Shown piece by piece: positions 37,854-41,965 of a stretch of 64,000 bases of DNA; position 1 is the stretch's first letter, and every line of letters begins with the position of its first letter. The DNA is from an uncultured Clostridia bacterium (lineage in GTDB: Bacteria; Bacillota; Clostridia; Christensenellales; Borkfalkiaceae). The position numbers were made by a program, and so were the translations under genes. The DNA lies in assembly GCA_947625865.1 (NCBI GenBank), contig CANQQD010000004.1:1-64000 (forward strand). The letters run 5' to 3'. The notes under the pieces were generated by a model. That model was not told where the DNA came from. It did not search any database and was given only the letters and a program-made list of their open reading frames with translations.

Positions 37854-37943
37854 CATTATTTAACGGCGCATGCGTTCCGTCGCAAATGTCCTCCCGCAAA
37901 TATGGAGTATTTTACATATGCTTAAAACGCACGTCCCCGCGGA

Positions 37944-38861
37944 TCAGGCTTGCTGTGCATCCTCATAATCGTCGGGCAGTTCTATTGTCGTTGTGCCTAT
38001 GTCGGAAACGGTGTGCACCTCGGTCGCTTTGCCGCCCTCGCCCGCGTCGTTCGCCACGTCATAGGTCAGTGCAGCAAGCTTGCCGTCTTTGAATGTAATA
38101 CAGATATCGCTGTACTCGCACTTTACGGTCATGGGATTTATCGCCTGCACCTTTTCCGTCATATCGATATAGCCGCATTTATAAACTCCGCCGGCGTCAT
38201 AGGTAAATTTGCCGAAGCAGTCCGCGAACATAGTCAGCAAACTGTAGTTGCTTGCCATCATGGTGTCATACATATTTTCAGGTATCGTCTGCCTGTGACA
38301 AATGTGTTCGCTATCATAGTTGTAGAGGTAGCATATCCCCTCTTCTTTTGCGCAAAACAACACCGCTATGCCGTCCAGATATTGCGCCTGTATGCCCCCG
38401 CCGAACTTTACCACAATAGTTTCCGTCACCGTATTGCCGGCGTCAACATATGTTTGTACGTTGGTCAGAGTAAAGTTTTTGGTATTGCCGAGAATTTCAC
38501 GCCATTCGTTCTCCGTCACCTCTCCGCCGACGGTCACGGTCACGGCGCAGGTTGCGCTCTTGCCTCCGGCAGCCGCCGTAATTTTTGCCGAGCCGGCTTT
38601 AAGCGCGGTCACCTTGCCGTCCTCTACCTTAGCGACGTCCGGATGGTCGGAGGTCCATACCACCGTTTTATCGGTTGCGTCCACGGGCGCGATCTCAGCC
38701 GTCAGCGTTTCCTCGCCGCCGACTTCAATCGTCAGTTCGGTTTTATTGAGCGTTATTGCCGTCACGGCAACATTCCCGCCGCCGTTGCCGCAGGCTGTAA
38801 GCCCGAACACGCAGCAGAGCGCACAGGCAAAAGCCAATACAGAAAGTGCGATTTTTTTCAT
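37944..38861 (-). CDS. lipoprotein with bacterial Ig-like (Big2) domain
   Basis: Encodes 305 aa from the ATG at 38861 (AAGGAG upstream). Signal peptide with lipobox LTAC. Residues about 32-112 form a Big2 Ig-like domain (ITLNKTELTIEVGGEETLTA pattern and VTALKAGSAKITAAA), then a unique C-terminal domain with no family I recognise. The start lies 26 bases from the predicted invertible segment, and in the present orientation no good promoter faces it. I therefore read it as a possibly phase-variable surface protein currently off. Confidence 0.75.
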   Translation of the reverse strand: MKKIALSVLAFACALCCVFGLTACGNGGGNVAVTAITLNKTELTIEVGGEETLTAEIAPVDATDKTVVWTSDHPDVAKVEDGKVTALKAGSAKITAAAGGKSATCAVTVTVGGEVTENEWREILGNTKNFTLTNVQTYVDAGNTVTETIVVKFGGGIQAQYLDGIAVLFCAKEEGICYLYNYDSEHICHRQTIPENMYDTMMASNYSLLTMFADCFGKFTYDAGGVYKCGYIDMTEKVQAINPMTVKCEYSDICITFKDGKLAALTYDVANDAGEGGKATEVHTVSDIGTTTIELPDDYEDAQQA

Positions 38862-38886
38862 TTTCAACTCCTTTGCGCCATAGTTT

Positions 38887-38991
38887 AAGTGTACTTTTGC
38901 TTACCCCGAATACTTGCAATTTTTATGCCTTGATGATATAATAAATGCCATAAAAAACATATTTTTCAGGCGTTGTAGTAAAAGTACACTT
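38887..38991. promoter_or_regulatory. predicted invertible promoter segment (serine-recombinase type)
   Basis: Inverted repeats AAGTGTACTTTTGCTT (38887-38902) and, on the plus strand, TAGTAAAAGTACACTT (38976-38991) match at 14 of 16 positions. Each contains AAGT-GT-ACTT or its complement: half-sites around a non-palindromic two-base centre, as serine recombinases require. Between them is a consensus promoter, TTGCAA (38914-38919), 17-bp spacer, TATAAT (38937-38942), now facing right toward the recombinase gene. Flipping the segment would aim it at the lipoprotein on the left. Both genes are adjacent. Inversion itself is inferred. Confidence 0.6.
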
Positions 38992-39019
38992 TTTTGTAAA
39001 TTTTATTTTTTTTGCCGGG

Positions 39020-39057
39020 AAAGCGCGGAATATAAGTATATTGCCCGCGTTTTTTTG
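39020..39057 (+). terminator. terminator-like hairpin in the recombinase leader
   Basis: CGCGG (39024-39028) and AATAT pair with ATATT and CCGCG (ending 39049) with a small bulge, followed by TTTTTTT (39050-39056). It sits between the invertible promoter and the recombinase ATG on the plus strand, so transcripts from that promoter would be attenuated before the gene. Confidence 0.6.
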
Positions 39058-39087
39058 TTATTCTTTTGTAAAAAGGAGTATTTTGCT

Positions 39088-39699
39088 ATGAACATTTACG
39101 CATATGCCCGCGTTTCCGCCCGCGACCAGAATCCGGACAGACAAATCGCCGCGTTTACAGACTTCGGCATTGAAAAAGACCGTATTTATGCGGACAGGAA
39201 AAGCGGCAAAGACTTTGAAAGACGTGAATATAAACGGCTCATAAAAAAATTAAAGGCGGGGGATCTTCTCGTAATCAAGTCTATAGACCGTCTGGGGCGG
39301 AATTACGAGCAGATCATATCCGAATGGTCCCGCATCACAAGCGCATTGGGCGCGGATATACTCGTGCTCGACATGCCTCTTTTAGACACGCGCGCAAAAG
39401 CAGATACGCTCGTGGGCAAGTTTATATCCGACGTGGTTTTGCAGGTTTTATCCTTCGTTGCGCAGAACGAAAGGGAAAATATCAGACTGCGGCAGGCGGA
39501 GGGGATAAGGATAGCCAAGCAGAACGGCGTAAAATTCGGCAGACCGCAAAAGCAATATTCCGGGGAATTTTTGGCCATTGCCTCAGCCTACATAAAAAAG
39601 CGCGTCACCTCTGCATACGCGGCTTCAGCCCTCGGCATTACGCGTGAAAACTTTTATTATCATGTAAGAAAATTGAAAAAGAGCTTGCCGCCGGCATAG
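39088..39699 (+). CDS. serine recombinase (resolvase/invertase family)
   Basis: Encodes 203 aa from the ATG at 39088; AAAGGAG lies 10 bases upstream. The N-terminal catalytic domain has the nucleophile Ser10 in YARVSARDQ, the SIDRLGR motif around 70-76, and the long E-helix ending in NERENIRLRQAEGI. The C-terminal helix-turn-helix (about 168-195) binds DNA. At this size it is a small invertase/resolvase, not a large transposon integrase. Adjacent inverted repeats around a promoter make it the likely enzyme for a local DNA switch. It is not next to transposon genes. Confidence 0.9.
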   Translation: MNIYAYARVSARDQNPDRQIAAFTDFGIEKDRIYADRKSGKDFERREYKRLIKKLKAGDLLVIKSIDRLGRNYEQIISEWSRITSALGADILVLDMPLLDTRAKADTLVGKFISDVVLQVLSFVAQNERENIRLRQAEGIRIAKQNGVKFGRPQKQYSGEFLAIASAYIKKRVTSAYAASALGITRENFYYHVRKLKKSLPPA

Positions 39700-39791
39700 C
39701 CCTTTTACCTTTGCCGCGTAAGTCTATTAGCCCTCCGCGCTTGTTTATCGGGCACCGCCGCTGTAAAGAATTGTTTTTTTGAATTTCGGGC

Positions 39792-39819
39792 TTGCTTTTG
39801 CATGATTTGCTGTTATAAT
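39792..39819 (+). promoter_or_regulatory. promoter of the 167-aa lipoprotein
   Basis: -35 TTGCTT (39792-39797), 16-bp spacer, -10 TATAAT (39814-39819). The leader is about 70 nt. Confidence 0.5.
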
Positions 39820-39897
39820 AAAGGTGTGTTTTATTTGTAGTAGCTTGTAGTTTAAAAGAGGACGGCTGATTTTCAAATTTTTAACGGCGTAAGTATT

Positions 39898-40401
39898 ATG
39901 AGGAGCAAAATAACAGTAATTCACAAATTTCTTATATGTTTATTAACGGCGGCGCTTCTTTTCTGCTTGACGGCTGGCGGCTGTGCGCAAAGGTTAAGCT
40001 TTGTCGAGGGGGAATACGCTTCGATAGATGAAGTGGCTGACGCCGCTTTTTCAAAGGTCAAATTGGAATTATATAATATCGACAAACAGAGGTATTCCAA
40101 GGCAAATGGAGTGAATGTTATCTGCGATGTCACAAAATCGGGAGACGAAAAATATTTTTCTTTTGACCTATACCTATATGTGGATGAATTAAATGAATAC
40201 CGCAAGGTCAACGTAAACGAGCTTGAGTATGTGGGTGGTTCGCCGCAAGTATATAAAAGCAATCCGTCGGACGGGAACGGCTACATTGTCAGCGGCACAA
40301 GCTACAAAATCGATGGAATTGTCTTTGAATACCAATCAATAGTCACGGTTACTGTTTGCCAAAACGAAACGGAGTATTATTGTTATAGAATCTCACTGTG
40401 A
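39898..40401 (+). CDS. small lipoprotein of unknown function
   Basis: Encodes 167 aa. A positively charged start and hydrophobic segment end in TAGGC, a lipobox with Cys29. The mature part is beta-rich with many Tyr and Val residues. No family recognised. The ribosome site is weak. It is AT-rich compared with the main chromosome genes and lies in an accessory stretch. Confidence 0.6.
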   Translation: MRSKITVIHKFLICLLTAALLFCLTAGGCAQRLSFVEGEYASIDEVADAAFSKVKLELYNIDKQRYSKANGVNVICDVTKSGDEKYFSFDLYLYVDELNEYRKVNVNELEYVGGSPQVYKSNPSDGNGYIVSGTSYKIDGIVFEYQSIVTVTVCQNETEYYCYRISL

Positions 40402-40437
40402 ACTGCCGTGTAAACGTTAAATACAATTAAAATATAA

Positions 40438-40464
40438 AGACCCGCCGGCTATGCCGGCGGGTCT
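40438..40464. terminator. bidirectional hairpin terminator
   Basis: AGACCCGCCGGC and GCCGGCGGGTCT form a perfect 12-bp stem around TAT. It separates two convergent genes. The downstream U-run is short on the plus strand (TTTAT) and also short on the minus strand. Confidence 0.65.
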
Positions 40465-40469
40465 TTATA

Positions 40470-40811
40470 TCATTTTGTTTTTGATAAATTTTTTGTAAGT
40501 TTTATAATTAATTCTTTATTTTCTGTACTCAAATTGCGGAAATATTTTAAAAATAACATATCGGAATGTAAATTTTCCGAAGAAAAATTAACATTGCCAA
40601 ACTCATCCTGCCTGCCTACAAGATAATCGATCGAACATTGAAAAAAGTCGGCAATTTTAATCAGTGCGGAATAATCGGGCAATCTATTCAGTTTAGTCCA
40701 TCCGATAACGGTTGTGTATGGTATTCCGCTGCTTTCGGCAAATTGCTTTCTGTTTAGCCCCTTTTCAGCCAAAAGGTCGTTGAACGTTTCAATAAACACA
40801 TTGCTTTCCAT
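40470..40811 (-). CDS. XRE/Cro-CI-type DNA-binding regulator
   Basis: Encodes 113 aa. Residues about 8-65 form a helix-turn-helix of the XRE family (RKQFAESSGIPYTTVIGWTKLNRLPDYSALIKIADFFQCSIDYLVGR). The C-terminal ~45 residues are helical and polar and might mediate dimerization. It is divergent from the 275-aa lipoprotein gene, and palindromes lie over the shared promoter region, consistent with repression of that gene. AT-rich. Confidence 0.88.
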   Translation of the reverse strand: MESNVFIETFNDLLAEKGLNRKQFAESSGIPYTTVIGWTKLNRLPDYSALIKIADFFQCSIDYLVGRQDEFGNVNFSSENLHSDMLFLKYFRNLSTENKELIIKLTKNLSKTK

Positions 40812-40830
40812 ATCGAAATTTTATCAAAAA

Positions 40831-40888
40831 GACACCTAATAAGGTGTTGACATATCTGATTAGATAATATATAATTAGAATTATCTAA
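40831..40888 (+). promoter_or_regulatory. promoter with two operator-like palindromes for the 275-aa lipoprotein
   Basis: -35 TTGACA (40847-40852), 17-bp spacer, -10 TATAAT (40870-40875), both perfect. ACACCTAATAAGGTGT (about 40832-40847) is a near-perfect palindrome touching the -35. TTAGATAAT (40860-40868) and ATTATCTAA (40880-40888) form an inverted repeat that brackets the -10. Both are plausible targets of the divergent XRE regulator. Confidence 0.72.
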
Positions 40889-40990
40889 ATAGGTATTTTT
40901 TATTTAAAAAGATAGTTTTTGATTATCAACTTTTAACCGGAAGCGAACATACATACTATCTTTAAAATAAAATACAAAGGAGAAATTATT

Positions 40991-41818
40991 ATGAAAAGGT
41001 TATTGAAGGTTTTAGCGGCTGTAACGAGTGTAATATGTGCGTCAATATTGACAATTGCTTTTTCGGCATGCCAACAAAATCAAAACGCAGCGGTGCATAA
41101 GGATTTCGGACAATTCAGCCAAAACGGTTACATGTTGACTTCGTTTGCAACGCGGGAAATCGGGTTGGATGAAGCCGTCGGCAAATTAACAAGCAGTTCA
41201 AGGCAAGCGATGACGGTGGCATATTTGCCCGAACCCCTCCCCACAGATGAAAGTACTATAACTGCTATGTTGAAACGCAGCAACCATATAGTCGTTACAA
41301 CTAAATTTTTCAAAGAGGGCAGCGAAGAGATGCAGGAAGAAGTTTCCGACCAAACGGGATTGGTTGTGAACGATTATCTTAAGAAAAACGCCATTAATGC
41401 CGCTACGGGTTTATCCATTAAAAATTTATATCTGACCGACGCCGGACTGGAGTTTATGGACGAGGAAAATAAAAAATTCAAGGAAAGCGACGATTATATA
41501 AATGTGCCTTTCGCCAATTTATATACATATCATACCGACGAGCAGGCAAACCATCTGATCGTGCAAATGCATGATTTTGTAGACATCCCCGCCAGCGCGT
41601 TGAGCGGAGGAGTGAACTGCTATTACAGGCAGGATACCGAAATACTGTACGACATAATACCGCTGGATAATAATAATTTATCAGGCCCCAGATATGCGCG
41701 CATAAGTAAATGGCAGACTTCGCTCGGCTCCGTTGTTTCTACAGCCGCCGATTCTATCCATGAAGGATATGTTTTTCAGGTTGAAGTGGAATGGATCGAA
41801 AAAGATGAGGTTGCCTGA
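40991..41818 (+). CDS. lipoprotein of unknown function under a regulated promoter
   Basis: Encodes 275 aa. The signal peptide ends FSAC with Cys27 as the lipid site; AAAGGAG lies upstream of the ATG. The mature part has many acidic stretches and a motif IPLDNNNLSGPRYARISKW near the end. No family recognised. A consensus promoter with palindromes and a divergent XRE gene suggest a two-gene regulated unit. It ends at a strong terminator. Confidence 0.65.
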   Translation: MKRLLKVLAAVTSVICASILTIAFSACQQNQNAAVHKDFGQFSQNGYMLTSFATREIGLDEAVGKLTSSSRQAMTVAYLPEPLPTDESTITAMLKRSNHIVVTTKFFKEGSEEMQEEVSDQTGLVVNDYLKKNAINAATGLSIKNLYLTDAGLEFMDEENKKFKESDDYINVPFANLYTYHTDEQANHLIVQMHDFVDIPASALSGGVNCYYRQDTEILYDIIPLDNNNLSGPRYARISKWQTSLGSVVSTAADSIHEGYVFQVEVEWIEKDEVA

Positions 41819-41845
41819 AGTCCTGTTATAAATCTCATAAACGAT

Positions 41846-41883
41846 AAAAAAGGCGGGGGAGTTTGTTGCTCCCCCGCCTTTTT
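41846..41883. terminator. bidirectional terminator
   Basis: AAAAAAGGCGGGGGAG and CTCCCCCGCCTTTTT form a strong stem around TTTGTTG, with U-runs in both directions. It ends the lipoprotein transcript and, from the other side, the tRNA-Leu transcript. Confidence 0.9.
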
Positions 41884-41965
41884 GGTGCGGATAACAGGAC
41901 TTGAACCTGCACCCTCGCGGACAGGATTCTAAGTCCTGCGCGTCTGCCAATTCCGCCATATCCGC
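41883..41965 (-). tRNA. tRNA-Leu (anticodon TAG)
   Basis: Minus-strand cloverleaf with acceptor GCGGATA/TATCCGC, encoded CCA (ending at 41883), an anticodon loop CTTAGAA with TAG, and the long variable arm typical of tRNA-Leu (CCGCGAGGG region). It reads CUA/CUG-type Leu codons. Confidence 0.94.

Follow-up and report, generated by a model that had tools for sequence, protein, structure and literature searches.

Organization of the locus

Within the window, the whole 64,000-nucleotide stretch of DNA that was analysed, an intergenic region carrying a pair of inverted repeats lies between a lipoprotein gene and a gene for a small serine recombinase. The lipoprotein gene (37944-38861, minus strand) encodes a predicted product of 305 aa (MKKIALSVLAFACALCCVFGLTAC) with a Big_2 domain and a C-terminal domain whose predicted fold is LolA/LolB/LprG-like, and it is preceded by a Shine-Dalgarno-like AAAGGAG read from the sequence at 38868-38874 (minus strand). 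The recombinase gene (39088-39699, plus strand) encodes 203 aa. The left arm of the repeat lies 26 bp from the lipoprotein ATG at 38861 and the right arm 97 bp from the recombinase ATG at 39088, the same spacing that a preliminary description of this DNA had given. That description had also placed inverted repeats at 38887 and 38976, and the arms are indeed 16 bp long (38887-38902 and 38976-38991), agreeing at 14 of 16 positions after one of them is reverse-complemented. They contain a perfect 12-bp core, AAGTGTACTTTT at 38887-38898 and AAAAGTACACTT at 38980-38991, which a repeat search lengthens to 15 bp (93%).

Alignment of the arms found in relatives suggests that each arm represents a 26-bp dyad made of two 12-bp half-sites and a 2-bp centre. 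The putative left recombination site is CATAGTTTAAGT-GT-ACTTTTGCTTAC (38879-38904, plus strand, centre at 38891-38892), and the right one is, as reverse complement, TTACAAAAAAGT-GT-ACTTTTACTACA (38974-38999, minus strand, centre at 38986-38987). Cleaner dyads occur among relatives, for example TGTAGTTTAAGT-GT-ACTTTTACTACA at locus L006; the left arm in the window is an imperfect dyad, so that the efficiency of switching could be low. The two-base centre reads GT on one arm and AC on the other, as first described, and exchange would therefore invert the DNA between them. The predicted invertible segment (38891-38987, no strand) comprises 97 bp including the centres, contains no gene and leaves the Shine-Dalgarno-like sequence outside; the bases altered by its inversion run from 38899 to 38979.

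The consensus promoter noted earlier between the repeats, TTGCAA-17-TATAAT with a TG ahead of the -10 element, was recovered by a promoter scan at 38914-38942 on the plus strand, which gives the layout of an invertible promoter: a promoter between inverted sites, with a target gene adjoining. As read, it points toward a terminator and the recombinase; after inversion it would point toward the lipoprotein. When 38891-38987 was flipped in silico, the promoter faced the lipoprotein with 74 nt from the -10 element to the ATG, giving a predicted leader of about 67 nt (assuming a start 7 nt past the -10) ahead of a good ribosome-binding site. The earlier proposal that the lipoprotein is off as read and on after the flip is supported by this computed flip and fits the inversions and promoter directions of relatives described below. 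In the assembly data the window locus is seen in a single orientation, with the contig unbroken across the switch.

Besides the longer dyad sites and a second switch in the genome, the present analysis adds to that first reading a terminator and a separate -10 element for the recombinase. The intrinsic terminator (39016-39058, plus strand), a hairpin of -16.5 kcal/mol with a T run, starts about 25 bp beyond the right arm; a simple consensus terminator scan did not list this hairpin, probably owing to its bulge. Next comes an extended -10, TGTTATTCT (39056-39064, plus strand), which from its sequence is the probable promoter of the recombinase itself, and then a ribosome-binding site ahead of the recombinase gene. 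Since the terminator is followed by a separate -10, the invertible promoter in the OFF state probably gives rise to no more than a short dead-end transcript, the recombinase being probably insulated from the switch and transcribed from its own promoter. Hairpins of -10 kcal/mol or lower between arm and recombinase were found at 12 of 34 loci versus 9 of 680 shuffles, and the TGnTAnnnT motif at 15 of the 34, a raw count without a shuffle control. Such insulation is not universal, since no strong terminator was detected between arm and recombinase in L006, L014, L226, L225, L024 and L020 (0 to -3.4 kcal/mol).

The recombinase matches the PF00239 Resolvase domain over residues 3-148 (92.5 bits against a gathering threshold of 23.3; E 3.5e-26). 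It has the conserved motifs ARVS (residues 7-10) and DRLGR (residues 67-71), which hold the nucleophilic serine and the surrounding arginines, and its YARVS and DRLGR align with those of Sin and the gamma-delta resolvase. Among proteins of solved structure it matches Sin with 99 bits, gamma-delta with 76 bits and the DNA-invertase entry 4m6f, which we take to be Gin, with 52 bits. Against the NCBIfam Mpi equivalog NF009949 it scores 48 bits, well short of the cut-off of 272. In the 1.76-Mb assembly as a whole the 12-mer is confined to this pair (one forward, one reverse; control 0), so that by exact matching the genome holds one site pair and not the many sites served by one enzyme that characterize an Mpi-type master invertase.

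The switch block lies between a VCA0040-like gene and a tRNA-Leu gene (41883-41965). The VCA0040-like gene is present in 29 of the 41 genomes of the genus sample, the window's own included, and in the stretches compared around it in five other genomes no copy of the lipoprotein or the recombinase was detected, one of the five stopping at a contig end right after the VCA0040-like gene. The absence of the block from these relatives makes the switch look like a variable cassette. The variable interval from the VCA0040-like gene to the tRNA-Leu gene covers 37857-41883 of the window. Two more ORFs of this interval (39898-40401 and 40991-41818) are lipoprotein-like by eye and have no Pfam match, and a perfect 18-bp stem with a 3-nt loop (40432-40470), terminator-like on both strands, separates a small hypothetical gene from an HTH gene.

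Paired sites and promoters beside related recombinases

The repeat by itself was rejected as proof of a switch. The window holds two perfect 12-bp inverted pairs with a spacing of 40-150 bp, compared with a mean of 1.03 per shuffled window and at least one pair in 13 of 30 shuffles; such a pair is thus within chance and proves nothing alone, and it is relatives that carry the case. In favour of the pair at this locus, its 12-mer has no further copy in the assembly. We collected 140 recombinase homologs, of which 7 have too little upstream DNA, leaving 133 regions to be scored. Strong pairs (at least 16/18) lie upstream of the recombinase in 21 of these regions versus 4 of 1,596 shuffles, which also speaks for the pair; two of these regions, L071 and L079, have pairs of another sequence type. 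At 31 recombinase-adjacent loci, hand-picked by eye from the 140 homologs, the centre dinucleotide is the same on both arms in every pair (GT/AC in 15, AT in 13, AG/CT in 2 and AA in 1), an agreement that is partly built in, since the pairs were found through similarity. A palindromic AT centre alone would not enforce inversion over deletion.

The pairs are unevenly distributed in the family. No pair was found upstream of the recombinase at L036, a close relative with 71% identity, or upstream of most of the more distant homologs. The window's 15-row clade of the recombinase tree (95/95) has 11 rows labelled as paired, the others being L036, L197 and two contig-end rows. A single origin of the paired sites on this tree is unsupported, with 16 changes of the ad hoc paired-site label versus a shuffled mean of 30.5. 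The pattern GTACTTTTN{72,102}AAAAGTAC gave single matches in 16 of 396 genomes across the order; several of them resemble coding sequence, and they were given no weight, as the reversed control matches about two dozen genomes once by our reading of the table. An inner-arm pattern, CTTTTACTAC...GTAGTAAAAG, was discarded, matching 2 of 392 genomes and missing the window itself.

Several of the pairs deserve mention in their own right. Different site centres occur within one genome at L266 and L211 of G279 (CT versus GT) and at L228 and L227 of G349 (AG versus GT), possibly forming an address system. The GT pair of G349 adjoins an Ig/LRR lipoprotein gene, and the sole recombinase found in that genome is on a different contig, suggesting action of the recombinase in trans. 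GTAC-cored pairs adjoin the recombinase in the Bacilli relatives L043, L046 and L050, where two of the three neighbouring genes encode type IIG restriction-methyltransferases. L222 (G232 C9, 2468-2574) is a pair with a promoter and no recombinase alongside; it lies about 95 bp beyond the 3' end of an ORF of 652 aa that includes an Ig-like stretch.

Promoter-like sequences scoring at least 13 were found in 17 of the 31 segments between arms, compared with 5 of 620 shuffled segments. At 15 of the 31 loci the promoter faces the recombinase and at 8 the other gene, the scores of the remaining 8 falling within the margin. It is the loci facing the other gene that argue for inversion, since a fixed recombinase promoter would also give the direction toward the recombinase. 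In genomes G035 and G001, identical 25-bp arms enclose promoters pointing in opposite directions. L124, L126 and L128, which belong to a separate, distant recombinase clade and were omitted from the 31-locus count, have their pairs just 33-52 bp upstream of the recombinase, and in all three a TTGCAA-17-TAAAAT promoter faces away from it.

Natural inversions and multi-site genomes

The window's genome (G000) carries a second switch of the family at G000:C1:51083-51191 (L114, L331), which is AT-centred, lies beside a recombinase 55% identical to that of the window and has its promoter directed toward an amylase-like lipoprotein gene. Its 109-bp segment matches the counterpart in G013:C2, from the same genus, at 108 of 109 positions when inverted versus 53 of 109 in the direct orientation. 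The flanks are 99.1% identical over 1,277 bp and 98.3% over 842 columns, and the switch sits within about 12 kb of collinear DNA; between the two genomes the inner half-arms are exchanged and the outer half-arms retained. The 12-kb stretches around L331 and L332 are 97% identical, yet the rpoC region of the two genomes is 85% identical; this value, together with the 5% contamination of G013, means that the stretch may owe its place to transfer or to mis-binning. Neither would affect the inversion between the two sequences.

Evidence of a different kind comes from G093, whose recombinase is 75% identical to that of the window and whose Ig lipoprotein is homologous (39% identical). Here one contig carries the recombinase and another the segment and the lipoprotein, and the two overlap by exactly 77 bp, a stretch found nowhere else in the assembly; the overlap stops at base 77, and the two orientations would begin to differ with the next base, 78. 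We read this break as an assembly-graph branch arising from a mixed population. In G279, three loci hold the 118-bp segment of a fourth locus perfectly inverted (118/118, versus 76/118 direct) between the same outer half-sites.

G279 belongs to g77, a genus in another family of the same order, of which ten genomes were scanned. Pairs of the form TTTCCTGAC...GTCAGGAAA number 18 in G279, 5 in G429, 13 in G386, 14 in G438 and 2 in G420 (reversed control 0) and are absent from the other five g77 genomes, and the arm pattern GTACTTTT gives 15 pairs in G279 and 8 in G429; three of the genomes thus carry 13-18 site pairs each. In G279 a recombinase sharing 64% identity with that of the window has a GT-centred pair about 100 bp upstream. 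This is the one family recombinase of the genome and stands beside one of its 15 GT-centred pairs, and no family recombinase was detected in G429, with its 8 pairs. Most of the 13-18 pairs in the multi-site genomes are away from any detected family recombinase gene. Thirty ORFs of more than 450 residues adjoin pairs in five genomes, 24 of them of at least 800 residues, lengths that are mostly lower bounds since the ORFs are cut by the edges of the stretches. N-terminal hydrophobic stretches recognized by eye suggest that their products are secreted or membrane proteins.

With direction scored from the outer half-sites, the promoter is turned toward the target side at 3 of 17 pairs in G279, 1 of 8 in G429 and 1 of 14 in G438, or 5 of 39 in total, the other 34 facing away; one G279 pair is unscored, one G279 side was set from the ORF and one G429 side by inference. 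The counts exclude G386 (13 pairs) and G420 (2 pairs), where both sides have similar outer half-sites and, for many pairs, the side of the gene could not be read, and, the assemblies being consensus sequences, they give the majority state at best. An earlier rule using the longest nearby ORF and the promoter score, under which 9 of 55 pairs in five genomes were ON, 27 OFF and 19 undetermined, was abandoned; it took two recombinases as targets and conflicts with the half-site rule at L252, L254 and L264. Contig ends near the G279 pairs were left out because the segments are repeated in that genome. L198-L220, L251-L264 and L271-L283 (G279, G429, G438 and G386) are genome-wide sets of pairs, many adjoining large ORFs and mostly facing away from them.

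Proposed mechanism, alternatives and related systems

We consider it very probable that the locus is a site-specific promoter-inversion switch of the lipoprotein operated by the adjoining serine recombinase. The recombinase would bind the two 26-bp dyad sites, cut at their centres and invert the 97-bp segment. In the orientation read, the strong promoter would be aimed at the terminator, leaving the lipoprotein OFF, and after inversion it would drive the lipoprotein gene, turning it ON. The recombinase, with its own -10 past the terminator, would probably be expressed in both states, so that the switch stays reversible. For the window copy, the inversion, the neighbouring recombinase as its agent, the effect of the terminator and the resulting phenotype are all predicted; support is comparative and comes from the inversion of the second switch, the occurrence of both promoter directions, the contig break in G093 and the multi-site version in g77.

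The same features could be read as a self-limiting toggle, in which the invertible promoter is the main promoter of the recombinase and the ON state shuts the recombinase off, fixing that state. The promoter as read does face the recombinase with no intervening gene, and the relatives lacking a strong terminator would suit such an arrangement. In the window, however, both the terminator and the separate extended -10 intervene, and locking in ON should make ON states accumulate, yet 34 of the 39 scored multi-site promoters face away from their targets, an argument that is weakened by most of these 39 sites not being beside a recombinase. Weakened in its turn by the terminator, the toggle appears unlikely to us.

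Serine recombinases can bind dyads near their own genes, and the paired sites might accordingly be fixed operators of an autoregulated recombinase, with no inversion taking place; the recombinase-facing promoters at 15 of the 31 chosen loci and the single orientation of the window locus would agree with this. Given the natural inversion pair of G000 and G013, the perfect inverted copies in G279 and the genomes in which most of the 13-18 pairs are away from any detected family recombinase gene, we regard fixed operators as highly improbable. We find it scarcely credible that the recombinase serves a mobile element as its resolvase, the inverted repeat being a remnant or a product of chance. Its best relative of solved structure is the resolvase Sin, homologs of 46-51% identity head the list of plasmid matches, with at least 5,000 plasmid records matching, and the block between the conserved gene and tRNA-Leu is missing at the syntenic place in relatives; against this, the pair and its promoter recur beside near relatives of the recombinase, and a Pfam search recognized no transposase or replication gene among six ORFs in and around the block.

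A promoter-inversion switch of this kind has parallels in several known systems. The best-known cases of a single serine recombinase inverting promoters at many loci come from Bacteroides. Two articles describe Mpi of Bacteroides fragilis as a serine master invertase with 13 regions, including seven polysaccharide promoters (PMC4747536, PMC5903667). The switch described here resembles the Mpi system in that a small serine recombinase would invert short promoter segments between inverted repeats at surface genes, and in that one enzyme may serve many loci, as we infer for g77. It differs in that the window recombinase falls below the Mpi equivalog cut-off, the window promoter is of sigma-70 type, the genome has one exact site pair, and the targets identified are lipoproteins together with further large ORFs whose N-termini, judged by eye, have a hydrophobic stretch. 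The mode of action would thus be Mpi-like, but with a Sin-nearest recombinase acting on its own sites in uncultured Clostridia. Hin/hix and Gin/gix use 26-bp dyad sites with a 2-bp centre, the recombinase gene being inside (Hin) or beside (Gin) the segment, and have a Fis-bound enhancer. The window switch shares with them the 26-bp dyads, the 2-bp centre and serine chemistry, and differs in having its recombinase outside the segment and nearer to Sin and gamma-delta than to 4m6f. With the Sin/Tn552 Bin3 group it shares its best solved-structure match and the aligned YARVS motif, but it is predicted to invert promoters rather than to resolve cointegrates.

Gut invertons were reportedly described by Jiang in 2019. 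In two further articles they are detected by PhaseFinder and PhaseFinderDC (PMC11892184, PMC11868660); one of these gives 3 as the median number of invertons per Clostridia-like genome and describes invertases near invertons as generally lying where the inverton promoter would not drive them, apart from one possible exception (PMC11892184). The window locus resembles invertons in its promoter between inverted repeats beside an invertase and surface genes, and differs in that its recombinase is placed to be driven by that promoter, but with a terminator intervening. Among the matches listed from open-licence literature, nothing was found on this switch or on a multi-site serine-recombinase version in such Clostridia, which is not a claim of absence from print.

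As a tentative extension, switches of this Sin-like lineage may have radiated to repertoires of 13-18 promoters per genome that are mostly OFF, starting from single cassettes that control a lipoprotein, an amylase-like lipoprotein or, in Bacilli, type IIG restriction enzymes; in many members of the family a terminator would insulate the recombinase. The centre would act as an address, GT, AT, CT/AG and AA keeping the switches of one genome from cross-recombining. The site consensus can be used as a search query in existing metagenome reads, and in the family one could study both the insulation of a recombinase from the switch beside it and the avoidance of cross-recombination where one cell has several switches. 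If the radiation is real, few large surface proteins would be expressed at a time in the multi-site genomes. At the window locus, the cell can probably flip its lipoprotein gene on and off by inverting the segment, and this surface lipoprotein would be expected to vary between cells of one clone.
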